NCBI RefSeq assembly: GCF_025751495.1
Contig: NZ_JAOWKZ010000002.1
Location: forward strand, 124,001 to 188,000
From: Albidovulum litorale
GTDB taxonomy: Bacteria > Pseudomonadota > Alphaproteobacteria > Rhodobacterales > Rhodobacteraceae
Direction: 5' to 3'
DNA: 64,000 bases
Shown here: piece after piece, positions 18,108-32,432 of the stretch
How positions within the stretch are numbered: the stretch's first letter is position 1
Layout: every line of letters begins with the position of its first letter
Position numbers and translations under genes: made by a program
Notes under the pieces: generated by a model
The model's input: only the letters and a program-made list of their open reading frames with translations
What the model was told of the DNA's origin: nothing
Database searches by the model: none

Positions 18108-18346
18108 GTCCCCTCGCCCACCTCTTCGCGCTCCCGGTGCGCGCCTATCGGCTGGTCTTCAGCCCCTGGGTCGGGCATTCCTGCAGATATCAGCCGACCT
18201 GTTCCGTCTACGCACTGGACGCGCTGGAGCAGCACGGCGCGCTTAAGGGCGGCTGGCTTGCCGCCCGCCGCATCGCCCGTTGCCATCCCTGGGGTGGATC
18301 GGGATACGATCCCGTGCCCGGTACTGATGGTCATGGAACAGAATGA
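18104..18346 (+). CDS. yidD: Membrane protein insertion efficiency factor YidD
   Basis: The 80-residue protein has the YidD pattern: amphipathic N-terminus ([27 protein letters not shown], quoted here as its components RLVFSPW and CRYQPTCS) and a C-terminal [14 protein letters not shown]. It assists YidC-dependent membrane insertion. The start is GTG at 18104, overlapping the rnpA stop (GTGA). yidC itself, often next in this cluster, is not here; a PLP enzyme gene follows instead. Confidence 0.94.
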
Positions 18347-18363
18347 CAGGTGGAGACGAGACA

Positions 18364-19413
18364 ATGCGCGGATGGGTAAGTGAGGCGATCACCCGGATCG
18401 AGGCGGATTTCCAGCGCTCGGCCGATACGCATCTCTTCCGCCTCGACGTTCCCGGGATCATCGGCGTCGACATCTACCTCAAGGATGAAAGCACCCATCC
18501 GACCGGCAGCCTGAAACACCGGCTGGCGCGGTCGCTATTTCTCTACGCGCTCTGTAATGGCAAGCTGCAGGAGGGACGGCCGGTGATCGAGGCCTCATCC
18601 GGCAGCACCGCCGTGTCGGAAGCGTATTTTGCCCGCATGCTCGGCCTGCCCTTCATCGCGGTGATGCCGAAAAGCACGGCGCGCAGCAAGATCGAGCTGA
18701 TCGAGTTTTATGGCGGCCAGTGCCATTTCGTCGGCTCTGCACCTGAAATGCATGACGCGGCGGTCGCGCTGGCCAAGACGACCGGCGGCTATTTCATGGA
18801 TCAGTTCATGTATGCCGAACGCGCCACCGACTGGCGCGGAAACAACAATATCGCCGACAGCATTTTCACCCAGATGGCGCGTGAACCGCATCCGATCCCC
18901 GCCGCCATCGTGATGAGCGCGGGCACCGGCGGCACCTCGGCCACGCTGGGCCGCTATGTGCGTTATCGCGGCTACGACACGGAACTCGTGGTGGTCGATC
19001 CCGAAAACTCCGTCTTTTTCGACAGCTATCAAAGCGGCGACAAGACCCTGACCCGCGCCTGTTCCAGCCGGATCGAGGGGATTGGCCGGCCAAAGGTGGA
19101 ACCGTCGTTCCAGCACGACGTGATCGACCGGATGATCCAAGTGCCCGATACGGCAAGCGTCGCCACGATCCTTTGGCTTGAAACCCTGATCGGCCGCAAG
19201 GCGGGCGCCTCGACCGGCACCAATATCTGGGGGGCGCTTCAGGTCGCGCGCGAGATGATGGCAGCGGGGCGCGAAGGGTCCATCGTCACCCTGATGTGCG
19301 ACAGTGGGCGGCGCTATCTGGATACCTACTACAACCCGGACTGGGTGGCCGAGCGGATCGGCGACATCCGCCCGCATCTTGAAGTACTTGCGGATTTTAC
19401 CCCAACCCGCTGA
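18364..19413 (+). CDS. Cysteine synthase-fold PLP enzyme, resembling L-cysteine desulfhydrase Cds1
   Basis: The 349-residue fold-type II PLP enzyme has its cofactor lysine at K51 in THPTGSLKHRLARSLF, a substrate loop ASSGSTAVSEA, and the phosphate-binding SAGTGGTSATLG. The HPTGSLKHRLA context differs from CysK (NPGGSVKDR) and, from memory, resembles the mycobacterial Cds1-type cysteine desulfhydrase, which releases hydrogen sulfide from cysteine. The start at 18364 is preferred because GGTGGAG lies 7 bases upstream. An in-frame ATG at 18343 overlaps the yidD stop and would add 7 residues. The precise reaction is inferred. Confidence 0.75.
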   Translation: MRGWVSEAITRIEADFQRSADTHLFRLDVPGIIGVDIYLKDESTHPTGSLKHRLARSLFLYALCNGKLQEGRPVIEASSGSTAVSEAYFARMLGLPFIAVMPKSTARSKIELIEFYGGQCHFVGSAPEMHDAAVALAKTTGGYFMDQFMYAERATDWRGNNNIADSIFTQMAREPHPIPAAIVMSAGTGGTSATLGRYVRYRGYDTELVVVDPENSVFFDSYQSGDKTLTRACSSRIEGIGRPKVEPSFQHDVIDRMIQVPDTASVATILWLETLIGRKAGASTGTNIWGALQVAREMMAAGREGSIVTLMCDSGRRYLDTYYNPDWVAERIGDIRPHLEVLADFTPTR

Positions 19414-20553: not shown

Positions 20554-22125
20554 CTATCGTTCCGGGAATCCCAGTGTGACCAGTGCATCAGATAACTCCT
20601 GCCGCCTGGCTTCGTCTCTGAACGGGAATGCAGTAAAGAAAGCCTCAACTGAAACGTCCTTGCGACGCGCCTTCGCCTCCTGCGTCCAGTATTGCGCCTG
20701 ATCGTGGCGACCGGCAGCTTCGTTTATCACGGCGGCAAATGCGTTGATCAGATAATGCGCGCCCGGCGTCCGCGCGCCCTGATCTGCCCAGCGCGCGGCC
20801 TCGTCCATCTCGTCCAATTGAAAATGCGCCATGCCCTTTGCCGCAAGCATCGCATAGCGGAACGGGTCAAGCGGGCTGAGGCTGATTGATTTTTCAAGGT
20901 TCTCAAGGGCGACTTGCCCATCGCCCGCCATCAGATCGGCCCAGCCATGCGCGTAGTAACCCTGCGCGAAACTGGGGCTCAGACTGCACGACCGTTCCAG
21001 CCAGGACTGCCCCGCCGCCGGGTCACCCCGGAGCCAATGGGCGCGGCCGAAGTTGAAATTCGCGAACGGGTCCATGGGATCAAGCTCCACGGCCCGCTCC
21101 GCATGGCGCCTGGCATCGTCGATGGCGCCCGCATGATCCGTCGAATAGCGCAGAAACGCCGCCTGGAAGCTGACGAAGGACTGGGCCGCATGGGCGCGGG
21201 CAAAGAGCGGATCGAGTTCGGTCGCACGCTGGAAAAAGTCGGCGGCACGGGCATTGTCCCCCCGGTTGAAGCGGAAGGCATGCTGAAGGCCGATGTGATA
21301 AAGCGACCAGGCATCAAGACCTGCTGGCGCACGCAAACGCGCAAGCTGCGCTTCGTGTTGCGGGATGTGCAGTTCCATCGCCGAAATGATCAGGGCAACG
21401 ATCTGTTCGCGCATGTCGTGCACATCGTCGATCTTGCCCGAGAGCCGGTCACCCCAGACGACCTGCGAGGTCCGCGCATCGACAAGCTCGATCGCGATTC
21501 CAAGCGCGGGACCGAGGATCTCAACCTCTCCTGACAAAATATAGGTCACGCCAAGCGCCGAGCGGATCGCCTCGAAATCCTGCACCGGCGGACGAAACCG
21601 AAAGCTCGACCCCCGCGCCACGACCTTGAGCCAGCGCAGCCTTGAAAGGATGGAGATCAGCTCTCCCGGGATCGCGTCGGCAATGGCGGAATAGACCTCG
21701 GAACTGCCGATCAGCGTGAAAGGCAGAACCGCAATTGAGGGCTTTTGCTCCGCCGGAACCGTCTCGACAGGTTGTGCATCTTCTTGCGGTCGCGGCTCGG
21801 TCACGGCTGCAGGCGCCACGATCCGAACATCCGCGACGAAGCGAAACCCGCGCCCGTGAACCGTGCGGATATAACGCTGCTGTTTACCATCGTCCCCAAG
21901 GGCGCGGCGCAGCGACTTGATCACCGTCGAAACCGCCGCGTCCGAGATGAAGCGCCCGTCCCAGACCTTTTCGACCAGTTCGTCCTTTGCAACCAGACGT
22001 TCGGAATTCTGCACCAGATGGCTCAGCACGGCGTAGGCCATGGGTTCGACCGGCAGCACATCATCGCCGCGGCGCAGGTCGCCTCGGTTCAGATCAAGTG
22101 CGAAACCGTCGAATGCGTAATGCAA
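20554..22125 (-). CDS. Winged-helix (OmpR/CadC-type) transcriptional regulator with TPR-like C-terminal half
   Basis: The 523-residue protein has an N-terminal OmpR/PhoB-type winged helix (residues 1-100; FDGFALDLNRGDLRRGD...AVSTVIKSLRRALGDDGKQQRYIRTVHGRGFRF, quoted in parts). Next is a domain beginning KPSIAVLPF that is typical of this class, then TPR-like helical repeats (about residues 280-500, with the AxELDPxxPFANFNxGxA pattern). No receiver domain is present. The TTG at 22125 is chosen because the winged helix begins there and GGGGAAGGC precedes it. The frame stays open to 22263, with an ATG at 22218. It faces the OsmC/CysK gene series and is its likely regulator. Confidence 0.8.
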   Translation of the reverse strand: MHYAFDGFALDLNRGDLRRGDDVLPVEPMAYAVLSHLVQNSERLVAKDELVEKVWDGRFISDAAVSTVIKSLRRALGDDGKQQRYIRTVHGRGFRFVADVRIVAPAAVTEPRPQEDAQPVETVPAEQKPSIAVLPFTLIGSSEVYSAIADAIPGELISILSRLRWLKVVARGSSFRFRPPVQDFEAIRSALGVTYILSGEVEILGPALGIAIELVDARTSQVVWGDRLSGKIDDVHDMREQIVALIISAMELHIPQHEAQLARLRAPAGLDAWSLYHIGLQHAFRFNRGDNARAADFFQRATELDPLFARAHAAQSFVSFQAAFLRYSTDHAGAIDDARRHAERAVELDPMDPFANFNFGRAHWLRGDPAAGQSWLERSCSLSPSFAQGYYAHGWADLMAGDGQVALENLEKSISLSPLDPFRYAMLAAKGMAHFQLDEMDEAARWADQGARTPGAHYLINAFAAVINEAAGRHDQAQYWTQEAKARRKDVSVEAFFTAFPFRDEARRQELSDALVTLGFPER

Positions 22126-22255
22126 AAAGCCTTCCCCACCGAAACTCAGACTTTCCCCATAAATTACCCACCCCCTGCTCAAGACCACAAGCAAAAGCTG
22201 CCTGTATTGCTTTCCCATCAGCCCGGAAGGGCCAGGAACGAAGAAGGAAAGCAAA

Positions 22256-22408
22256 ATGGACAACTTGATGAAGAAAGACCGCAGGCCCGGCTATGGCAGC
22301 GGCTTTGACGGGCTTTCGGGGCTGATCCCGAGCGACACTTCCCGCAGCTGGTACGCAGAACGGAGCCCGTTCTTTGCCAAGCCCCGACTGGGCGGACTGC
22401 ACCACTGA
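22256..22408 (+). CDS. Small 50-residue ORF at the head of the OsmC/CysK series
   Basis: An ATG at 22256 preceded by GAAGGAAAGC opens a 50-codon frame ending at TGA 22408. The peptide is polar, without a membrane segment or cysteines, and has aromatic and glycine-rich stretches (GYGSGFDGLSGL, SWYAERSPFF). I do not recognise the family. It lies between the divergent regulator and the first OsmC gene, with a 98-base gap to the latter. It could be a real small protein or a leader ORF; the good ribosome site is the main support. Confidence 0.45.
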   Translation: MDNLMKKDRRPGYGSGFDGLSGLIPSDTSRSWYAERSPFFAKPRLGGLHH

Positions 22409-22506
22409 ATGCGCCGGGCCCAAAGGCCCGCCATCCCGGACCGGAATAGCCGGCCATCCCCTCAAACCTCGAAGATCAGACACAAAAACTCTTGAAAGGA
22501 ACGAAC

Positions 22507-23073
22507 ATGCAAACCTCCACGATGACCAAGCCCGTATCAAACGGCGTCAACACCGAAGCCCTGATCGGTGCGCGCGGCGCGTTCGAGCAAATGCCCGAGG
22601 CCGCCGCCTTCACCTTCCGCAGCACCTGCGACTGGAAAGACGGCACCCACAGCACCAATGCGATCAATGGTTACTTCGGCCTCGGCCAGAACCACGAGCG
22701 CAAGGAAACCTTCCGCATCGACAGCGACCACCCGGAAGTCTTTGCCGCTGCCGACCGCGCACCGACCCCGCCGGAAATCGTTCTGGCCGCGCTTGCCAGC
22801 TGCCTTTCTGGCGGTGTCGCGGCCGTCGCCCAGCACCGCGGCATCCAGTTGCACCATATGCGGGCAATGGTCGAAGGCGACATCGACGTGCGCGGTATCC
22901 TCGGCATGGACCCGGACATCCGCAACGGTTTCTCGGCCATCCGCGTCAATTTCGAAATCGAAGCCGATGCCACCGCTGATGAAGTCCGCGCGCTGGTGGC
23001 CCAGTCGCAGAAGCGCTCTGCCGTCTTCGACATTCTCACCAACCCGACGTCCGTCAACGTGACGGTCGCCTGA
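22507..23073 (+). CDS. OsmC family protein (first copy)
   Basis: The 188-residue protein has the OsmC/Ohr fold pattern: a beta-rich N-terminal half, then the central helix PPEIVLAALASCLSGGVAAVAQHRGI with the conserved cysteine (near residue 100), and a C-terminal EIEADATADEVRALVAQSQKRSAVFDIL. OsmC/Ohr proteins reduce organic hydroperoxides through a cysteine pair. Here the central cysteine is clear; the second is less obvious (a Cys lies in RSTCDW). The ATG at 22507 is preferred over the upstream TTG because AAAGGAACG precedes it. A flavoprotein gene follows 28 bases later. Confidence 0.85.
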   Translation: MQTSTMTKPVSNGVNTEALIGARGAFEQMPEAAAFTFRSTCDWKDGTHSTNAINGYFGLGQNHERKETFRIDSDHPEVFAAADRAPTPPEIVLAALASCLSGGVAAVAQHRGIQLHHMRAMVEGDIDVRGILGMDPDIRNGFSAIRVNFEIEADATADEVRALVAQSQKRSAVFDILTNPTSVNVTVA

Positions 23074-23101
23074 CCCCGCCGGTCCGACAGGAGCAAGACC
23101 C

Positions 23102-24337
23102 ATGAAACACATTGGAACCCTCGTCATCGGCGCCGGTCAGGCTGGCCTCGCGATGAGCCGCTGCCTGTCGGACCGCAACATCCCCCATGTCGTTTTGGAG
23201 CGCGGAGGGATCGCAAATTCCTGGCGGCATGAGCGGTGGGACAGCCTTCGGCTGCTCACCCCCAACTGGCAAAGCCGCCTGCCCGGCTTCGCCTATAAGG
23301 GCGAAGATCCCGACGGTTTCATGTCGATGCCCGAGGTCACTCACTTCCTGAACGATTACGCCGCCGCGAGCCGGGCACCGGTCGAAGACCGCACCCGTGT
23401 GCTGTTGGTCACCGCCCGGGGCAACGGCTACCTTGTTGCGACCGACCGGGGCGACTGGAGTTGCGAGACGCTCATATTGGCCACCGGGTCTTGCAATATG
23501 GCCTCGGTACCCGGATTTGCGGCGGATATTCCGGAGAAGGTCGATCAGATAACGGCCCTCGACTACCGCAACCCCGACCAACTTGCGCCGGGTGGCGTTC
23601 TGGTGGTCGGCGCTTCGGCAACCGGTGTCCAGCTTGCCGCCGAAATCCGCGCCGCCGGACATGAGGTCATTCTTTCAGCCGGCGAGCATATCCGCATGCC
23701 GCGCCACTATCGCGGTCGGGACATCCAGTGGTGGATGGACCGGGCAGGCATTCAAACCGCGCGGGTCGACGAGGTCGATGACATTGACCGGGCCCGCCGG
23801 GTGCCATCGCTGCAACTCATTGGCTCTTACGAGCAGCGCTTTTGCGATCTGAGCAGCCTCGCCGCACAAGGGGTCGAGATCGTCGGCCGTCTCAGCGCCG
23901 TCCGCGATGGCACCGCGCTTTTCTCGGGTGCGCTGCACAATCACTGCGCGCTGTCCGACCTGAAGATGAACCGGCTGCTCGATACGCTCGATGCCTGGGC
24001 CGAGGACACGGGTATCGGCGGCATCGGCCCGGTCGAACGCTTTGCCGCGACACCCTGCCCCGCCTCGTCCCGCCTTTCGCTCTATCTGGGCAGTGGCCAC
24101 ATCAGGACCATCCTTTGGGCGACCGGATTCCGGCCCGATTACAGCTGGCTGAACCTGCCGGTCTTCGACCGTAAGGGCGGCCTCATCAACCAGGAAGGGT
24201 TGGTTGCGCCGGGACTATACGTCCTCGGCCTGCCGTTCATGCGACAGCGTAACTCTGCCCTCATCGATGGCGTCGGCGCCGATGCCGCCGCCCTTGCCGA
24301 CCACATTCTTTGCACACGCGGCCGTTCGGCCGCCTGA
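23102..24337 (+). CDS. FAD/NAD(P)-binding flavoprotein monooxygenase (CzcO-like)
   Basis: The 411-residue flavoprotein has an N-terminal FAD-binding Rossmann motif (VIGAGQAGLAMSRCL, from residue 8) and the SWRHERWDSLRLLTPNWQS region typical of CzcO/group B-like monooxygenases. A second nucleotide-binding Rossmann motif, VVGASATGVQLAAEI, begins near residue 167, and the C-terminus carries ILWATGFRPDYSWL. Such enzymes oxygenate sulfur, nitrogen or carbonyl centres using NADPH. The position between two OsmC genes, upstream of the CysK-like gene, suggests a small sulfur or nitrogen metabolite, which is inference. It abuts the next gene. Confidence 0.85.
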   Translation: MKHIGTLVIGAGQAGLAMSRCLSDRNIPHVVLERGGIANSWRHERWDSLRLLTPNWQSRLPGFAYKGEDPDGFMSMPEVTHFLNDYAAASRAPVEDRTRVLLVTARGNGYLVATDRGDWSCETLILATGSCNMASVPGFAADIPEKVDQITALDYRNPDQLAPGGVLVVGASATGVQLAAEIRAAGHEVILSAGEHIRMPRHYRGRDIQWWMDRAGIQTARVDEVDDIDRARRVPSLQLIGSYEQRFCDLSSLAAQGVEIVGRLSAVRDGTALFSGALHNHCALSDLKMNRLLDTLDAWAEDTGIGGIGPVERFAATPCPASSRLSLYLGSGHIRTILWATGFRPDYSWLNLPVFDRKGGLINQEGLVAPGLYVLGLPFMRQRNSALIDGVGADAAALADHILCTRGRSAA

Positions 24338-24349
24338 ATGGAGATACCA

Positions 24350-24904
24350 ATGACCATGATGAACCCCGATAACGATGCGAAACCGGTCCCCGCGCGAGAC
24401 GAAGTCATTCGGCAGGCGCAGACCGCCGTGATCGAGCGGATGCGGCAAGACCTTGATGCCGCTTGCAATACGATCGTGACAACCGGACGGGTCGAAGAGG
24501 GCCTGATCTGCCACGCCGCGCAGGGTAAGTATCATGCGACTATGGATATGGGGCCCGGCATGGGTGGCGACGCGGCCGGGCCAAGCCCGGGATTTTTCGC
24601 CCGCGCCGCTATCGTTGGATGCGTCGGCATCGGTGTAAAGATGATGGCCGCGCGTGAAGGGCTCGTCTTCCGCTCGGTCGATGTCACGATCGAATGCGAT
24701 TTCGACGATGCCGCGCTGATGGGGCTAAGCCCACGCACGGCCGCCCCGCTGGAAACCCGGATCCGTATCGAAATCGACACGGACGAGGACCGCGCCACGG
24801 TCCAGAGCCTCGTCGACCGCGCCTTGTCGAAGGACCCCTGGTACCTCGCGCTCCGCGACGCCCAGGTCGTCCAGCACAAGGTTCACATGACAACGGCCAC
24901 CTGA
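24350..24904 (+). CDS. OsmC-like protein (second copy)
   Basis: The 184-residue protein resembles the OsmC fold: a central helix GPSPGFFARAAIVGCVGIGVKMMAAREGL, the strand FRSVDVTIECDFD, and a C-terminal ETRIRIEIDTDEDRATVQSLVDRALSKDPW, which follows the OsmC layout. The conserved cysteine lies in VGCVG. The start at 24350 is chosen because GGAG is 6 bases upstream; an ATG at 24338 directly after the flavoprotein stop would add four residues. Two divergent OsmC-type proteins in one gene series is unusual. Confidence in the family is moderate. Confidence 0.7.
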   Translation: MTMMNPDNDAKPVPARDEVIRQAQTAVIERMRQDLDAACNTIVTTGRVEEGLICHAAQGKYHATMDMGPGMGGDAAGPSPGFFARAAIVGCVGIGVKMMAAREGLVFRSVDVTIECDFDDAALMGLSPRTAAPLETRIRIEIDTDEDRATVQSLVDRALSKDPWYLALRDAQVVQHKVHMTTAT

Positions 24905-24934
24905 CCGATCATACCTATGAAAAGGATAAGCGAG

Positions 24935-26437
24935 ATGCACATGAAACCTGTCCCCCAGACCGCCCCGGCGCTTCACGGCTCCATCCTCGACACGATCGGC
25001 AATACGCCCCTCGTCCGCATCAACCGGCTCGCGCCCGAAGGTGTCGAACTCTACGTCAAGGTCGAGGCTTTCAACCCCGGCGGTTCGGTCAAGGACCGCT
25101 TCGCTTTGGCTGCAATCGAGGCGGCAGAGGCATCGGGCGCCCTGAAACCCGGCCAGACCGTGGTCGAAGCGACGTCGGGCAATACCGGCATTGGCCTTGC
25201 GCTCGTTTGCGCCGCCAAGGGCTACCCGCTGGTCGTGACCATGGCAGAAAGCTTCAGCGTCGAGCGGCGCAAGCTGATGCGGTTTCTTGGCGCGAAGGTG
25301 GTGCTGACGCCCGCCGCACAGAAGGGGACGGGCATGCTCGCCAAGGCCGAAGAACTGGCCCGCGAACACGGCTGGTTCCTTGCAAGGCAATTCGAGAACG
25401 AGGCCAATGCCGACATGCATTCCCGCACCACCGCGCGGGAAATCGTCGATGCCTTTGGCGAACAAGGCCCGGACTACTGGGTCACCGGCTTCGGAACCGG
25501 CGGCACGTTGAAGGGCGTCTCTCGGGTCCTGCGCGCCGAATGCCCCAAGACGCGGATCGTCGTGGCAGAGCCGGACAACGTCCCGCTGATGCAAAGCGGA
25601 ATCGCGCAGGAGCGGGATGCAGACGGCCACCCGGCCAGCCACCCGATGTTCCGTCCCCACCTGATGCAGGGCTGGTCGCCGGACTTCATCGCGAGACTCG
25701 CCGAAGATGCCGTCAGCGCGGGCGCAATCGACGCGTTCCAACCCGTCGCCGGCAATGCCGCTCTGCAAGCGGCGCGCGACCTTGCGGCGCAGGAGGGCAT
25801 CTTCTGCGGCATCAGCGCCGGTGCAACCTTCGCTGCCGCACTGGAAGTGGCGAAGACCGCCCCCAAAGGGTCGCGCATCGTTGCGATGCTGCCCGACACC
25901 GGCGAACGCTACATGTCCACGGTCCTATTCGATGGCATCGAGGAGGAAATGAGCGACGACGAGATTGCGCTGTCACGGTCCACACCCGGCGCGCGCTTCG
26001 ACAGCGCGGGCCCATCACCAGCGGCCCCTGCGGCCGCACCGACCTGCAAGCCCGAGGCCGCAAAGATGGTCGAAGAGATCGTCGCGCAGCATCCCGTTGT
26101 GATGTTCGTCCTTGAATGGTGTGAATTCAGCTGGTCTGTACGCAAGCTCTTTGCCGCGGCGGGCGTGCCTTATCACGCGGTGGAGCTCGATGCGGCCGCG
26201 ATGCAGAAGGACAATCTCGGCGGCGATCTTCGGGCCGCGCTGGGTGTCAAGGCCGGCGTGCCAACCATTCCGCAGATCTTCGTGGGCGGGACGCATGTTG
26301 GCGGGGCGACGGAAACTTTCGAGGCGTTCAAGGATGGCTCAATGGCAGAGCGGCTCGCCGCTTTGGGCCTCAGCTTCGACGCGAGCAAGACGGCCAATCC
26401 CTTTGGGTTCCTGCCCGGATGGATGCATCCACGGTAG
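24935..26437 (+). CDS. Cysteine synthase-like PLP enzyme fused to a C-terminal glutaredoxin-like domain
   Basis: The first 340 residues are a CysK-type beta-substituting PLP enzyme: cofactor lysine in FNPGGSVKDRFA (near residue 49), substrate loop SGNTGIG, and phosphate-binding GTGGT. CysK makes cysteine from O-acetylserine and sulfide; relatives use other nucleophiles. A Pro/Ala linker (about residues 345-370) leads to a glutaredoxin-like domain of about 110 residues, with VMFVLEWCEFSWSVRK (C396) and the cis-proline/glutathione region GVPTIPQIFVGG. The CxxC is reduced to CEFS, a monothiol form. ATG 24935 is preferred because AAGGA lies 8 bases upstream; ATG 24917 is in frame. The decarboxylase gene follows by 13 bases. 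Confidence 0.88.
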   Translation: MHMKPVPQTAPALHGSILDTIGNTPLVRINRLAPEGVELYVKVEAFNPGGSVKDRFALAAIEAAEASGALKPGQTVVEATSGNTGIGLALVCAAKGYPLVVTMAESFSVERRKLMRFLGAKVVLTPAAQKGTGMLAKAEELAREHGWFLARQFENEANADMHSRTTAREIVDAFGEQGPDYWVTGFGTGGTLKGVSRVLRAECPKTRIVVAEPDNVPLMQSGIAQERDADGHPASHPMFRPHLMQGWSPDFIARLAEDAVSAGAIDAFQPVAGNAALQAARDLAAQEGIFCGISAGATFAAALEVAKTAPKGSRIVAMLPDTGERYMSTVLFDGIEEEMSDDEIALSRSTPGARFDSAGPSPAAPAAAPTCKPEAAKMVEEIVAQHPVVMFVLEWCEFSWSVRKLFAAAGVPYHAVELDAAAMQKDNLGGDLRAALGVKAGVPTIPQIFVGGTHVGGATETFEAFKDGSMAERLAALGLSFDASKTANPFGFLPGWMHPR

Positions 26438-26450
26438 ATCGGAGTTCGAC

Positions 26451-27914
26451 ATGGCACAGACCCTTGCGCATCTTACCCCTTCCGATGTTCTGACCCGCGC
26501 GGCCAGCTACGCGCGGGGCTATCGGAGCAGCAAGCACCCGATCAGTCCTTCCGCCTCAGCCGCCGCGCTGAGAGAGCGGTTCTGTCTTCCGCTGACCAAT
26601 GACGGATTTCCCGGCGGGCGCGTGATCGATGAGTTGATCGCGGCAGCCGAACCGGGACTTGTCGGTAATACCGATCCGAACTTCTACGCCTGGGTCATGG
26701 GCGCGTCCGACCCCGTCGGTGTCGCGGCCGACTGGCTCACCTCCGCCTGGGGCCAGAACGCGGCGATCTACCAGTCCTCGCCCGCCGCTGCGACGGCCGA
26801 AGAGGCGGTCGAGGCCTGGCTTCTCGAACTGCTCGACCTGCCGCGCGATAGCTCGGTGGGTTTCGTCAGCGGCGCGACGATGGCGGCCTTCGTCAGTCTG
26901 GCCGCAGCGCGTGGAGAAGTACTGAGACGCTACGGGTACGATATCGATGCAGAAGGCCTTCAGGGCGCGCCGAAGGTACATGTCTTTCTCAGCGACGATG
27001 CCCATGTCACGAACTACGCGGCGTTACGCCAATTAGGCTTCGGCGAGGCCAATTTCCACAGATTGCCGTCGGACGAGGCCGGGCTTATGCGTCCGAAAGA
27101 TCTGGCCGCTTCCATGATCCGCGCCGAGGGGCCAAAAATCATCGTGGCTCAGGCCGGACACATCAATTCGGGCGGCTTCGAGCCCTTGGCCGAGATTGCA
27201 GAACTTGCGCGGTCGCATCATGCATGGATGCATGTCGACGGTGCATTCGGGCTCTGGGCGCGGGCCTCGGTCACGCGTAAGGATCTGGCAACGGGGGCGG
27301 AGCTTGCCGACAGCTGGTCGGTCGACGGTCATAAGTGGCTGCAACTGCCCTACGAATCCGGTTTTGCTATCGTCCGGAACAGGAAAGCCCATCAGCGTGC
27401 CATGCAGAAAACCGCAGGTTATCTCAACACGGACGAGGAAGACGGTCGTAACCCGTCTGCATACACCCCTGGCCTGTCTCGACGAGCCCAAGGTTTCGCC
27501 GCCTGGGCGGTTCTGCGCCGCCTCGGCCGCAACGGCGTTGCCGGTTTGGTCGACCGCCATTGCGGGGCGGCGACCGTCCTGGCAGAACGCCTTGGTCGGA
27601 TCGGCGGGCTTTCGGTGCTGAACCGCGTTGATCTCAACCAGATCATCGTCGGCTGCCACGACCGGAACAACGAGCACTGGAAAATCGCGGCACTGGCCGA
27701 CGGGTTGAACGCCGAACAACATTTCTTTGTGCGAACGGCATCGTGGCAAGGGCGTACCGTCCTCCGCCTGTCGATTATTTCGCAGGATGTCGATTTCAAT
27801 CATGCGGAAATGCTCGCTGAAGCAATTGAGGAGCTTTGGCCTGCAATTGACGCGGCGGACGAGCGGGCAGCGGCATCGCCGAGCGATCTATGGAGGCTAC
27901 AGTCGATCTCGTAG
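26451..27914 (+). CDS. Group II PLP-dependent amino acid decarboxylase family protein
   Basis: The 487-residue fold-type I PLP enzyme resembles the aromatic-L-amino-acid/glutamate decarboxylase group. The cofactor lysine is K295 in SVDGHKWLQLPY, HVDGAFGLW carries the PLP-pyridine aspartate, and the N-terminal third has the NFYAWVMGASDPVGVAADWL substrate-side region. The substrate is unknown. Its place after a CysK-like enzyme suggests it could decarboxylate a beta-substituted alanine to an ethylamine, which is inference. The start at 26451 has GGAG 7 bases upstream; the frame is open much further up without homology. It is the last gene of the series. Confidence 0.82.
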   Translation: MAQTLAHLTPSDVLTRAASYARGYRSSKHPISPSASAAALRERFCLPLTNDGFPGGRVIDELIAAAEPGLVGNTDPNFYAWVMGASDPVGVAADWLTSAWGQNAAIYQSSPAAATAEEAVEAWLLELLDLPRDSSVGFVSGATMAAFVSLAAARGEVLRRYGYDIDAEGLQGAPKVHVFLSDDAHVTNYAALRQLGFGEANFHRLPSDEAGLMRPKDLAASMIRAEGPKIIVAQAGHINSGGFEPLAEIAELARSHHAWMHVDGAFGLWARASVTRKDLATGAELADSWSVDGHKWLQLPYESGFAIVRNRKAHQRAMQKTAGYLNTDEEDGRNPSAYTPGLSRRAQGFAAWAVLRRLGRNGVAGLVDRHCGAATVLAERLGRIGGLSVLNRVDLNQIIVGCHDRNNEHWKIAALADGLNAEQHFFVRTASWQGRTVLRLSIISQDVDFNHAEMLAEAIEELWPAIDAADERAAASPSDLWRLQSIS

Positions 27915-28151: not shown

Positions 28152-29045
28152 ATGGCATTCACCCTCAGACAGCTTCAGTTCTTCGTTGCTGCGGCCGAAC
28201 ATGGCAGCGTGTCCGGGGCCGCCAAAGCTCTGGCCATATCGCAGTCCTCGGTCACCGAGGCGATCAAGGCATTGGAAGCCGATCTCGGGATCACGCTTTT
28301 TGAACGCCGCGCACGCGGGATCGCCATCACCAATGCCGGCCACCAGTTTTTGCGTCACGCCCGGAAGATCCGGGACGACGTGTCGGACGCCCGCCGCGCC
28401 TTCCAGATCGAGGTGGCCGAGCGTACGGGGGAGTTGAGGCTCGGGGTTACCTCGCTCGTTGCAGGCTATGGGCTGGCCGAGACCCTGTCGCGGTTCCGTC
28501 GGACCTTTCCGGCAGTGCACATAACCGCCATCGAGGATTCCGGTGAGTATCTCGAACACCTGCTGATCGGCGGCGAGATAGACGTGGCCTTCCTTCTGGT
28601 CTCGAACCTGCACAACCGTCACGCCTTTCAGGTCGAAAGCATCGCGGCTTCGGCCATGCGGCTCTGGCTACCGCTTGGCCATCCACTGGCTGCAAAGGAA
28701 GCCATTGAACTTGACGAGGTCGCCCGCGAACCGCTGATCATGCTGTCGCTGGAGGAGATCGAGGAAAGCACCGAACGGCTCATGGCCTCGCTCGGGGCCC
28801 GGCCAGAGGTTGCGTTCCGCACCCGGTCGGTGGAAGCCGTGCGCAGCCTTGTCGCGACCGGCGTCGGGCTCGCCATTCTGCCCGACCTCATCTACCGGCC
28901 ATGGTCGCTGGAAGGCGACCGGATCGAGATCAGGGATGTCTCGGGCGATCTGCCCACGGTGCAGGTCGGCATGGCCTGGCGGCGCGGTGCCCCCCTGTCG
29001 GAAATTACCCGCGATTTCGTACGGCTGGCGCAAAGCTCGTTCTGA
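28152..29045 (+). CDS. LysR family transcriptional regulator
   Basis: The 297-residue regulator has the LysR N-terminal helix-turn-helix (MAFTLRQLQFFVAAAEHGSVSGAAKALAISQSSVTEAIKALE, residues 1-42, quoted as its parts) and a typical periplasmic-binding-like effector domain. It lies 149 bases upstream of the ydcSTUV-patD-like operon on the same strand, and so probably controls it, although LysR genes are more often divergent from their targets. The decarboxylase gene upstream ends 237 bases earlier, in a gap with no gene. Confidence 0.9.
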   Translation: MAFTLRQLQFFVAAAEHGSVSGAAKALAISQSSVTEAIKALEADLGITLFERRARGIAITNAGHQFLRHARKIRDDVSDARRAFQIEVAERTGELRLGVTSLVAGYGLAETLSRFRRTFPAVHITAIEDSGEYLEHLLIGGEIDVAFLLVSNLHNRHAFQVESIAASAMRLWLPLGHPLAAKEAIELDEVAREPLIMLSLEEIEESTERLMASLGARPEVAFRTRSVEAVRSLVATGVGLAILPDLIYRPWSLEGDRIEIRDVSGDLPTVQVGMAWRRGAPLSEITRDFVRLAQSSF

Positions 29046-29066
29046 CCTAGGCCACTGCGCCAAAGA

Positions 29067-29083
29067 TATCGGTAAAACCGATA
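29067..29083. promoter_or_regulatory. Perfect inverted repeat before the ydcS-like gene
   Basis: TATCGGT - AAA - ACCGATA is a perfect 7-bp inverted repeat, 21 bases after the LysR stop and about 110 bases before the binding-protein gene. It may be an operator for the LysR protein or another regulator, or a short hairpin ending the lysR transcript. Confidence 0.4.
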
Positions 29084-29194
29084 ACACTCTTCTGAATTTT
29101 GAGTTTGCGAAAATCGCGTAGGAGGGCAGACTTCGCCCAATCCGCGAAGACGGAAAATCCGCGCGCGTTAACACAGCAATCAGGGAGAAATGGG

Positions 29195-30355
29195 ATGTCC
29201 GCACGCTTTCTTGTGACCGCGAGTGCTGCTGCGCTGATCGCGGCGCAGCCTGTTCTGGCGCAGATGGCGACCGAGATCGGCGCCGGCGAGGGTCAGGTCG
29301 ATATCGTCGCTTGGCCGGGCTACATCGAGCGCGGCGAAACCGACGCCGCCTTCGACTGGGTCACGAAGTTCGAGGAAGCCTCGGGCTGCAAGGTCAACGT
29401 CAAGACCGCCAACACCTCGGACGAGATGGTGGCGCTGATGAACGAGGGCGGCTTCGACCTCGTCACCGCCTCGGGCGACGCCTCCCTGCGCCTGATCGCC
29501 GGCAAGCGGGTACAGCCGGTCAACGTGGATCTGATCCCCTCCTGGGCCTCGGTCGACGACCGGCTGAAAGACGCGCCGTGGCACACGGTCGATGGCACCC
29601 ATTACGGCACGCCCTACATGTGGGGTCCGAACGTGCTGATGTACAACAAGGACGCCTTCGGCGACACACCGCCAACATCATGGAACGTCGTCTTCGAGGA
29701 AATGACCCTGCCCGACGGCCAGTCGAACAAGGGCCGGGTGCAGGCCTATGACGGGCCGATCCACATTGCCGACGCGGCGCAATACCTGATGGCGCACAAG
29801 CCCGAGCTTGGCATCACCTCGCCCTACGAGCTGAACGAGGACCAGTACAAGGCGGCGCTCGACCTTCTACGCGGGCAGCGGGAACTGGTGAACCGTTACT
29901 GGCATGACGCCTTCATCCAGATGGACGATTTCAAGAACGAGGGTGTCGTGGCCTCCGGCTCCTGGCCGTTCCAGGTCAATATCCTGCAAAGCGAAGGTCA
30001 ACCCATCGCCTCGGTCGTACCCGAGGAAGGGGCCACCGGCTGGGCCGACACGACGATGATGCATGTCGATGCCGCCCATCCGAACTGCTCTTACATGTGG
30101 ATGGAACATTCGCTGGCCTCGAACCTGCAATCCGACCTTTCGGTCTGGTTCGGTGCGGTGCCCTCCGTGCCCGCCGCCTGCTCCGACGGTCGCGGCATGC
30201 AGAACCAGGAAGGCTGCGACGCCAATGGTCTCGCCGATTTCGAAAAGATCCGCTTCTGGACCACGCCGGTGTCGAACTGCTCGCAGGGCGAAGGGGCCTG
30301 TGTGCCCTATTACCGCTGGGTCTCTGACTATATCGGCGTGATCGGCGGACGCTGA
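29195..30355 (+). CDS. ydcS: ABC transporter periplasmic binding protein, spermidine/putrescine type (YdcS-like)
   Basis: The 386-residue secreted protein has a signal peptide ending near LIAAQPVLAQ (residue 23) and the polyamine/iron-type (PotD/PotF fold) binding domain: GQVDIVAWPGYIE, FDLVTASGDASLRLI, YMWGPNVLMYNKDAF. Together with the next four genes it repeats the E. coli ydcSTUV-patD order, and YdcS is of similar length (381). The probable ligand is putrescine or a related amine, by analogy. The start at 29195 follows CAGGGAGAAATGGG and gives the signal peptide. Confidence 0.85.
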   Translation: MSARFLVTASAAALIAAQPVLAQMATEIGAGEGQVDIVAWPGYIERGETDAAFDWVTKFEEASGCKVNVKTANTSDEMVALMNEGGFDLVTASGDASLRLIAGKRVQPVNVDLIPSWASVDDRLKDAPWHTVDGTHYGTPYMWGPNVLMYNKDAFGDTPPTSWNVVFEEMTLPDGQSNKGRVQAYDGPIHIADAAQYLMAHKPELGITSPYELNEDQYKAALDLLRGQRELVNRYWHDAFIQMDDFKNEGVVASGSWPFQVNILQSEGQPIASVVPEEGATGWADTTMMHVDAAHPNCSYMWMEHSLASNLQSDLSVWFGAVPSVPAACSDGRGMQNQEGCDANGLADFEKIRFWTTPVSNCSQGEGACVPYYRWVSDYIGVIGGR

Positions 30356-30363
30356 ACCCTGAC

Positions 30364-30381
30364 CGGGGCCTAGCGGCCCCG
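30364..30381 (+). terminator. Hairpin after the ydcS-like gene
   Basis: CGGGGCC - TAGC - GGCCCCG forms a 7-bp hairpin 8 bases after the stop codon, with no U-tract. Hairpins like this behind binding-protein genes commonly protect the upstream mRNA and reduce read-through, giving more binding protein than membrane components. Confidence 0.5.
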
Positions 30382-30450
30382 ACCTCCACACGGCGAGGGG
30401 AAGTGTGGCACGGAACGCCACCACTCAACCCGCATTTACCCTTCGCGTCT

Positions 30451-30473
30451 CCCTCCCCCGCTACGGGGGAGGG
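30451..30473. repeat. Second, 10-bp hairpin in the ydcS-ydcT spacer
   Basis: CCCTCCCCCG - CTA - CGGGGGAGGG is a perfect 10-bp inverted repeat, 40 bases before the ATPase gene. It looks like a dispersed GC-rich palindromic element and, like the preceding hairpin, may modulate expression within the operon. Confidence 0.5.
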
Positions 30474-30513
30474 GCGCGGTGGAGAACGTCGCCCCTGCAT
30501 CCCGGAATAGCCA

Positions 30514-31506
30514 ATGTCCTACGCCGTAGAATTCGACCACGTCTCGCGCCATTTCGGCACGGTTCGCGCCGTGGACGATGTCTCCATCGCTATCGAGGAA
30601 GGCGGGTTCTTCGCCATGCTCGGCCCGTCCGGCTCTGGCAAAACCACCTGCCTGCGGCTGATTTCGGGCTTTGAGCGACCCACGGCGGGCCATGTCCGGA
30701 TCTTCGGCGAAACCTCGGAAGACCTGCCCCCGAACCGCCGCCCGGTGAACACGGTTTTTCAGGACTACGCGCTTTTTCCGCATCTGAGCGTGCGCGACAA
30801 CGTGGCCTACGGGCTGATGGTTCAGGGCATCGACAAACGAACGCGCCACGCCCGCGCGGAAGAGATGCTCGCACTCGTCAAGCTTGACAGCTACGGAGAC
30901 CGCAAGCCTGCGCAGCTTTCGGGCGGGCAACGCCAGCGGGTGGCGCTCGCCCGCGCGCTGGTGAACCATCCGCGCGTCCTTCTGCTCGACGAACCTCTCG
31001 GCGCGCTCGATCTGAAACTGCGCGAGGCGATGCAGGACGAGCTGAAGGCGCTGCAACGGCAGCTCGGCATCACCTTTGTTTTCGTCACCCATGATCAGGG
31101 CGAAGCCCTGTCGATGGCTGACCGCGTCGCCGTCTTCAACGATGGCCGCATCGTGCAGGAAGGCAGCCCCGAAGACATCTACCAGCGCCCCCGCACCCGA
31201 TTTGTCGCGGATTTCGTGGGCTCGGCCAATGTCCTCTCGCCCGCGCTCAGCCGCCGGGCAGGCGGAATTGAATCGTGGCATAGTCTCAGAGCCGAGGCGA
31301 TGGAAACCGTTGCCACGGACTCGGGCCGGATTTCGGGAACCGTCATCACAGTGCGCTACCTCGGGGCCGTCAAGCGGGTCACAGTGGATGTGGGTGGCGA
31401 CGAACTCACCGTGGCCATTCCCGCCGGTCAGGATGCCCCTGCCGAAGGCGCGGCCGTGGGACTGAACTGGACCGCCACCGCCATGCACCGGATGGAGGAG
31501 GAGTGA
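30514..31506 (+). CDS. ydcT: ABC transporter ATP-binding protein (PotA/YdcT-like)
   Basis: The 330-residue ATPase has Walker A GPSGSGKTT (residues 37-45), the signature LSGGQ (135-139) and Walker B LLLDEPLGALD. A C-terminal TOBE-like extension of about 90 residues is seen in PotA and other importers of the spermidine/putrescine class. It energises the two permeases that follow. The stop codon overlaps the permease start (TGATG). Confidence 0.92.
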   Translation: MSYAVEFDHVSRHFGTVRAVDDVSIAIEEGGFFAMLGPSGSGKTTCLRLISGFERPTAGHVRIFGETSEDLPPNRRPVNTVFQDYALFPHLSVRDNVAYGLMVQGIDKRTRHARAEEMLALVKLDSYGDRKPAQLSGGQRQRVALARALVNHPRVLLLDEPLGALDLKLREAMQDELKALQRQLGITFVFVTHDQGEALSMADRVAVFNDGRIVQEGSPEDIYQRPRTRFVADFVGSANVLSPALSRRAGGIESWHSLRAEAMETVATDSGRISGTVITVRYLGAVKRVTVDVGGDELTVAIPAGQDAPAEGAAVGLNWTATAMHRMEEE

Positions 31507-32432
31507 TGGAGGCGGTCCGTCCCGGCATCGCGCAGGGCCTGTCGGACCTCTTCTGGAGGCGGCCAAAGGTCCTGCTTGCGGTCCTTCTGATCCCGCCGCT
31601 TCTCTGGCTTGGCGTGATCTATATAGGCTCGCTCGCAGCACTTCTGGTCCAGAGCTTCTTTTCCATCGACGAGTTCTCGGGCCTCATCAATTACGAATTT
31701 ACGTTGAAGACCTATGCCGAACTGCTGCGGCCAGCGAATTTCGACATCATCCTGCGCACGACGCTGATGGCCGCCTCAGTCACCGTGGCCGCAGCGATCA
31801 TCGCTTTCCCCATCGCGTACTACGCCGCCCGCTTCGCCAAGGGGCATATGAAGGCGCTCTTCTACCTCGGCGTCATGCTGCCTCTGTGGTCGAGCTATCT
31901 GGTCAAGGTCTATGCCTGGAAACTGATCCTCGCCAAAGAGGGTATCCTGACCTGGGCCGTGGACGGGGTAGGCGCAAGCGCCGCTCTGAACGCCATCCTC
32001 GCCCTGCCGGTGATCGGTGGGGGTTCGCTTTCGGTCAGCTATATCGGCACGTTCCTCGTCTTCCTCTATGTCTGGCTGCCCTTCATGATCCTGCCGGTTC
32101 AGGCCGCACTGGAACGGGTGCCCGCGAACCTCCTTGAGGCGTCGAACGACCTTGGCGCGCGCCCGGGCCAGACCTTGCGGCATGTCATCCTGCCCCTTGC
32201 AATGCCGGGGATCATCGCGGGGTCGATCTTCACCTTCTCGCTGACCTTGGGCGACTACATCATTCCCCAGATCGTCGGCTCCTCACGTCTCTTCATCGGA
32301 CAGGCGGTCTATGCCCATCAGGGCACCGCCGGGAATATCCCGCTGGCGGCCGCCTTCGCGGTCGTGCCAATCGTGATCATGGGACTCTACCTCTGGATGG
32401 CCAAACGGCAGGGGGCGTTCGATGCACTCTGA
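31506..32432 (+). CDS. ydcU: ABC transporter permease (PotB/YdcU-like)
   Basis: The 308-residue integral membrane protein has six predicted helices and the EAA loop ([29 protein letters not shown], about residues 208-236, quoted in parts) that contacts the ATPase. The ATG at 31506 shares a base with the ydcT stop; a GTG one codon earlier is possible. The next permease gene overlaps by 11 bases, showing tight coupling. Confidence 0.9.

Follow-up and report, generated by a model that had tools for sequence, protein, structure and literature searches.

What kind of unit is formed by genes for two OsmC-domain proteins, a flavoprotein monooxygenase, a CysK-like enzyme fused to a glutaredoxin and a pyridoxal 5'-phosphate (PLP)-dependent decarboxylase, all facing a divergent winged-helix regulator? 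The question is raised by a 64,000-nucleotide stretch of the Albidovulum litorale genome (contig NZ_JAOWKZ010000002.1, positions 124,001 to 188,000; hereafter the window). The original prediction proposed a single pathway in which a beta-substituted alanine is made, decarboxylated to an ethylamine and then oxygenated, and it would have taken scattering of the genes among relatives as a sign of chance grouping. Comparison with related loci indicates that two modules, which elsewhere have separate related regulators, are merged in the window: module A, consisting of the CysK-glutaredoxin fusion and the decarboxylase, and module B, consisting of the first OsmC protein (OsmC1), the monooxygenase and the second OsmC protein (OsmC2). 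Gene order, predicted operator and module structure, taken together, can be put forward with high confidence. The most likely purpose of the unit would be the capture and neutralization of excess reduced sulfur or thiols, a proposal that is more tentative.

The order regulator, OsmC1, monooxygenase, OsmC2, CysK-glutaredoxin, decarboxylase is complete in seven loci (the window, L042, L043, L045, L046, L049 and L052), and L044 shows the right part of the series with only the end of the monooxygenase. When named genomes were scanned using the fusion protein, the best 80 of 263 matches corresponded to 79 loci; counts based on these loci lean towards the window because only the best-scoring matches were taken, and several of the loci are near relatives and not independent. 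Genes outside the window are simple open reading frame (ORF) calls or tblastn matches, some loci are cut by contig ends, and the annotated collections searched comprised plasmids only. The closest named relatives belong to Defluviimonas, the fusion protein being 95% identical in D. salinarum and 94% identical in D. aestuarii. Amongst the 49 of 79 loci that extend into the glutaredoxin part (L042-L089 and L097, some of them cut or frameshifted), a decarboxylase of at least 51% identity directly follows the fusion in 12, and OsmC1 and the monooxygenase are present in the examined DNA of 13. With the window's own genome included in both counts, the full fusion is found in 2 of 195 genomes of the order, and OsmC2 has a patchy distribution within the family (15 of 248 genomes).

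The regulator (complementary strand, 20554-22125) combines, according to Pfam and alignment, an N-terminal winged helix (PF00486, Trans_reg_C) with C-terminal TPR repeats. Its most likely start is the TTG codon at 22125 (giving 523 amino acids) and not the far end of the ORF at 22263, because a GTG or TTG start is kept there, as judged by eye, in the alignment of seven loci. Against the HilA/EilA-type family NF009037 it scores 122.9 bits, short of the cut-off of 589. At E <=1e-100, 39 copies, including the window's own, occur in 37 of 394 genomes of the family, the others being 41-75% identical. The divergent side of all 39 was inspected as far as the stretches reach (only 1.5 kb in L174), and 23 copies face CysK (with or without decarboxylase), the OsmC1-monooxygenase pair, or both. 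Fourteen copies (L159, L167, L175, L177, L178, L180, L182-L186 and L191-L193) face a CysK gene with a decarboxylase gene after it in the same direction, one or two small genes lying between the two in some of these loci; one copy (L179) faces CysK without a decarboxylase match, five face the OsmC1-monooxygenase pair (L141, L142, L145, L166 and L168), and three face both modules, like the window. Two of the 14 loci (L159 and L167) resemble the window in regulator (56-57% identity), CysK (61%) and decarboxylase (47-49%), and the remaining 12 carry a decarboxylase subgroup that is 28-33% identical to the window's. In L176, an S-adenosylmethionine (SAM) methyltransferase is the second gene facing the regulator. 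Two CysK-decarboxylase loci also encode proteins with signal-like N-termini, as judged by eye, and no Pfam family (L159:9544-10101, 185 amino acids; L177:3011-3613, 200 amino acids).

The seven series loci have a common intergenic block, which resolves into four CYCA-N7 direct repeats with an 11-bp period; in the window these read CTCA, CCCA, CCCA and CTCA (forward strand, 22145-22188) and form the predicted operator. Using a pattern drawn by eye from ten loci, four successive [CG]YCA-N7 units were found 10 times in 2,096,568 bp on both strands, always in the divergent region of the regulator and at eight distinct loci, compared with 0-3 matches for each control gap length from 3 to 13 in the same DNA. 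Three repeats are kept in register in L045 and L046. Another 39 upstream regions had no part in the discovery of the motif, and the count of CTCA pairs in them is a fair test: the spacings of 11, 22 and 33 bp account for 11, 6 and 3 pairs, respectively, and every other spacing between 4 and 40 bp for 0-1. The looser [CG]YCA pairs are noisier (20, 16 and 6 versus 0-7 at other spacings). A broader form, CA-N8-YCA-N8-YCAAG, which was written after inspecting the test sequences, occurs in all 11 regions of the first set, in 22 of the 31 regions with a regulator identity of at least 40% (and not in the other nine), and in 4 of the 8 regions with an identity below 40%; when its spacing is changed in nine ways, it is absent from the 31 regions and appears once in the first set. 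Its position is 51-54 bases into the region in 20 of the 22, which places it at a single distance from the start of the regulator, and over the full 31 loci it has 27 matches (595,616 bp counting both strands). In an after-the-fact test on the eight repeat-bearing intergenic regions, four repeats arose in at most 0.025% of first-order Markov resamples. Within the window's own genome, the core ACCCA-N7-CTCAAG-N4-CAAG matches without mismatch only at the operator, and two further places match with two mismatches, as is also seen with the backward control. These comparisons demonstrate that the regulator and certain divergent genes recur together and that the DNA between them carries direct repeats of 11-bp period, whose distance to the regulator start hardly varies.

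Direct repeats with an 11-bp period in a regulated divergent region are what a PhoB-like winged-helix protein would be expected to use, and such a site is predicted here from sequence. The window's regulator and PhoB/OmpR-type activators with their pho box have both PF00486 and 11-bp direct repeats in common; they differ in that the window's regulator has a TPR C-terminus and no receiver domain was found in it, and in that there are four repeats with a different core. In PhoB-type activation the last repeat lies at the -35 position. A candidate -10 element, TATTGC (forward strand, 22205-22210), picked by eye from the seven-locus alignment, lies 16 bp after the fourth repeat, which would therefore sit at -35. 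The regulator would bind the repeats in the manner of PhoB-like proteins and, given the place of the fourth repeat at the would-be -35, would activate the operon, with a transcript starting near 22215 and extending through the decarboxylase gene.

A 50-codon ORF with a ribosome-binding site (forward strand, 22256-22408; no Pfam family) lies within the regulator's divergent region and is probably the first gene of this transcript. In a comparison of the window, L042 and L043, the nonsynonymous and synonymous rates (dN and dS) in frame are 0.04-0.08 and 0.27-0.44, giving dN/dS of 0.10-0.29, and dS in shifted frames stays close to dN or falls below it, never exceeding 1.3 times dN; the in-frame signal weakens to 0.37-0.73 when L052 is added. 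The ORF is thus probably translated. L142 has a weak relative (E 0.002) immediately upstream of OsmC1, and no match was found at that position in L045, L046 or L049. In L189 (1841-2152) and L195 (1896-2153), regulators of the family face small ORFs ending in an LPFF..GFGR-like sequence that faintly resembles the RSPFF end of the 50-codon ORF. The five genes that follow on the forward strand have starts at 22507, 23102, 24350, 24935 and 26451, which were picked by eye from ribosome-binding sites; these starts reproduce the spacers of 28, 12, 30 and 13 bases given in the original prediction, and its gene content, strands, divergent regulator and 50-codon ORF agree with the ORF list and Pfam. Beyond the series lie a LysR regulator and a YdcS-type ATP-binding cassette transporter (28152-32432), and the LysR gene, which is unmatched next to the series at other loci, was not counted as part of the series, nor were the transporter genes after it.

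Within module B, the most constant feature is the pairing of OsmC1 (22507-23073) with the monooxygenase (23102-24337), a flavin adenine dinucleotide (FAD) flavoprotein with a Pyr_redox_3 domain that is related to the MSMEG_0569 family and ArsO and scores under both cut-offs. A monooxygenase of at least 49% identity was found in 14 genomes besides the window's own among 337 genomes of the class, and in four further genomes when 398 genomes of the phylum were searched. OsmC1 adjoins it on the same strand in all 18 (a 78-amino-acid ORF is called in the gap in L138), and an actinobacterial record (L121) also carries the pair. Six weaker matches from the class search (37-40% identity) were left out of this neighborhood count, and no OsmC1 was seen beside a 39% identical plasmid relative (L124). 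Nine more genomes with the pair were found through OsmC2, for a total of 27. The company of the pair varies and includes OsmC2, a SAM methyltransferase, a second FAD enzyme, the CysK-glutaredoxin fusion, or a truncated globin and cyclase, sometimes with a kinase and a response regulator. The full fusion is present in 5 of the 27 genomes, each time within about 4 kb of the pair (three found through the monooxygenase and two, G540 and G634, through OsmC2), and absent from 22, and no decarboxylase was found in the examined stretch of 25. A conserved set of truncated globin, PAS-cyclase, hybrid kinase and response regulator near the pair in L036, L052, L057, L071, L078, L085 and L143 may represent a heme-based sensor cassette. 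In gammaproteobacterial loci (L051:6917-9927, L062:5320-8841 and L154:10951-13853), an SCO4226-like protein and a large BTAD-type activator, assigned by Pfam in L051 and by similarity in L062 and L154, are flanked by OsmC1-monooxygenase and the fusion; the activator is another predicted regulator type for the same genes. Arsenic (ars) genes border a Novosphingobium plasmid locus, an observation given no weight; ars genes were not searched for beside other loci.

OsmC/Ohr hydroperoxide reductases have two reactive cysteines; in OsmC1, Cys99 is invariant in 42 of 42 aligned rows and Glu90 is also conserved, and the column that we take to be the usual place of the second cysteine holds Ser171 in all 42, such that the two-cysteine pattern is not found. 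OsmC2 (24350-24904) has invariant Cys54 and Cys91 (18 of 18 rows), a candidate for the usual OsmC pair. The sole PDB match of OsmC1 at threshold was 2opl. The monooxygenase scores 331 bits over almost the full length of the MSMEG_0569 oxidoreductase family (TIGR04046; cut-off 498), from which it is set apart by its constant partner, OsmC1. A link to cyanide through this family, which we take to be Nit1C-like, was dropped given the score below the cut-off; no nitrilase search was made. Class B flavin monooxygenases (FMOs) have an FxGxxxHxxx motif. The monooxygenase column nearest the motif's histidine holds Q, T, S, M or R in 43 rows and never H, and 12 of the 43 rows have H elsewhere in that loosely aligned loop.

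In module A, the first protein (24935-26437) joins a CysK-like PALP enzyme to a C-terminal glutaredoxin. The CysK PALP fold is marked by TSGNTG and GTGGT motifs, and ATSGNTG and GFGTGGT are present here (PALP, 237 bits). Since the score against TIGR01139 (337.4 bits) is under the equivalog cut-off of 350.95, the enzyme is labelled CysK-like; it scores more like CysK than CysM (337 versus 228 bits). Its best-scoring solved relative is O-ureido-L-serine synthase (PDB 3x43), likewise a PALP enzyme close to CysK, from which it differs by the added glutaredoxin domain and by having no D-cycloserine-type partners among the identified genes (no dedicated search was made). A link to D-cycloserine, suggested only by this best PDB match, was dropped. 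The glutaredoxin domain (PF00462, 46.7 bits) has an active site of the CxxC/CxxS type, which reads CEFC in 41, CEFS in 10 (the window's motif among them) and CEFT in 2 of 53 distinct rows, with L150 standing for the window and L139 for L049 in this alignment. Group II PLP decarboxylases have a Schiff-base lysine and a ring-stacking histidine, and the decarboxylase (26451-27914; PF00282 Pyridoxal_deC, 137 bits) has Lys295 and His185 in 16 of 16 rows. Its best-scoring solved relative is DOPA decarboxylase; a comparison of pocket residues with aromatic decarboxylases, made by eye, fixed no substrate. The C-terminus past residue 464 (27843-27914) lies outside the matches to relatives. A further PLP enzyme, similar to the L-cysteine desulfhydrase Cds1 (561.7 bits, cut-off 600), is encoded at 18343-19413, on the far side of the regulator at a distance of 1.1 kb; this Cds1-like gene is matched by the CysK query at 26% identity, and the same query found no such gene near the series elsewhere.

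In the proposed mechanism, CysK would join a sulfur nucleophile, most likely sulfide or thiosulfate, to O-acetylserine, and the glutaredoxin domain would reduce a mixed disulfide or S-sulfo product. The decarboxylase would then act on the product or a near relative, removing its carboxyl group to give a cysteamine-type amine. Module B would be a thiol/flavin redox set that probably answers the same signal, since it has the same regulator type; it need not act on module A's product. A sulfur role is suggested by the neighbors of related loci. A DsrE-like gene lies within about 3 kb of the fusion and decarboxylase in L039, L047, L048 and L050, sister loci with a more distant regulator of similar build, and L050 also has a NifS-like cysteine desulfurase. 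In L194, a member of the regulator family that also has the repeats, and is only 41% identical to the window's regulator, faces a different target enzyme, the methanethiol S-methyltransferase MddA (285.8 bits, curated cut-off 270). The explanation as a whole, a regulated transcription unit that merges two modules for sulfur capture, comes near to an even chance without reaching it; the sulfur reading itself is possible and tentative, and the decarboxylated product is unlikely, being rated low because decarboxylases occur without CysK.

Several observations weigh against this explanation. For sixteen of the 39 regulator copies, the divergent side shows other genes or none that could be identified, and the copies of L172 and L173 face genes without a clear sulfur role. 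The DsrE, desulfurase and MddA genes each occur in few loci, and three loci with fusion and decarboxylase (L036, L056 and L085) gave no DsrE match. The series loci have CEFS, so that the glutaredoxin of the window's clade is without the second cysteine, and the window's genome has a second CysK. As many as 31 of the 49 fusion loci have neither a close decarboxylase nor OsmC1-monooxygenase in the examined DNA, and the fusion is therefore used in other settings too. A close decarboxylase was found in 12 of 324 genomes of the class, 9 of which have no CysK match in the examined stretch (some stretches being short), the remaining three being the window's own genome, G002 (unfused) and G309 (fused, and apparently the same contig as L056). 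A Sinorhizobium meliloti relative (48% identity, L123) likewise has no CysK in the examined stretch, and a decarboxylase lies near only 4 of 30 unfused CysK loci (L094, L096, L114 and L115), divergent in each. The decarboxylase therefore has CysK-free uses, and by these comparisons it is chiefly downstream of this regulator, and within the Rhodobacteraceae fusion group, that the link between CysK and decarboxylase is strong.

The same counts bear on the rival explanations. Production of a small natural product or osmolyte, with a CysK-made beta-substituted alanine converted to an ethylamine and oxygenated by the flavoprotein (e.g., cysteamine to hypotaurine and taurine), is the original prediction itself. 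Its first half is partly upheld by the 14 loci in which the regulator faces CysK and decarboxylase, with two decarboxylase subgroups, and by the conserved Lys295 and His185, but CysK adjoins only 3 of the 12 close decarboxylases. Its second half, oxygenation of the amine, is not supported: the fusion is absent from 22 of the 27 OsmC1-monooxygenase genomes, no decarboxylase was found in the examined stretch of 25, and the column nearest the FMO-motif histidine holds no histidine in the loosely aligned loop. This explanation is unlikely. With respect to taurine, a literature search for a bacterial cysteate synthase or decarboxylase gave no paper; no dedicated gene search was made. An oxidant-stress operon, in which the OsmC proteins would reduce organic hydroperoxides with electrons from the flavoprotein, CysK-glutaredoxin would supply cysteine and repair mixed disulfides, and the decarboxylase would be incidental or make a scavenging amine, is equally improbable: the OsmC and glutaredoxin domains, the conserved Cys99 and Glu90 and the truncated globin and cyclase beside several OsmC1-monooxygenase pairs are consistent with it, but Ser171 occupies the expected second-cysteine place, and regulators face CysK-decarboxylase without OsmC (14 copies) or OsmC1-monooxygenase without CysK (5 copies). 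Finally, the modules do occur apart in relatives, and their presence is patchy, as a chance grouping of unrelated genes would predict. This partial scattering argues against a single indivisible set; the recurrent groupings nevertheless remain, and chance was rejected as highly improbable in view of the order conserved in seven loci, the constant OsmC1-monooxygenase pairing and the common regulator and operator. The original expectation of a grouping conserved beyond chance is thus borne out.

Each protein of the series belongs to a known family, and it is the predicted operator that is new here. The closest known chemistry is the E. coli route in which S-sulfocysteine is reportedly reduced by thioredoxin or glutaredoxin (PMC3528435); both systems involve an O-acetylserine enzyme and glutaredoxin chemistry, whereas in the window the two are fused in one protein that is encoded beside a decarboxylase and OsmC proteins. 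A glutaredoxin fused to PAPS reductase, unlike the CysK fusion here, is described in another report (PMC2705460). Literature searches covering few subscription journals returned no description of the arrangement, of the regulator-operator pair or of a repeated CysK-decarboxylase coupling.

In its broadest form, the sulfur-capture explanation would hold that winged-helix TPR one-component regulators of the Rhodobacteraceae sense reduced sulfur or thiols and, through three to four 11-bp repeats, drive interchangeable sulfur-disposal modules (CysK-decarboxylase, OsmC-flavoprotein, MddA), two of which would be joined in the window into one operon that makes a decarboxylated sulfur amine from sulfide or thiosulfate and whose first product is a small conserved protein. 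This generalization is rather doubtful. If true, a predicted binding site and target genes could be assigned to a common, unnamed regulator family, and the CysK-decarboxylase pair would offer a way to sulfur amines that can be tested directly in marine and soil bacteria. Targets could be read from genomes by means of the operator, and the modules that are split in relatives would provide ready-made experimental controls.

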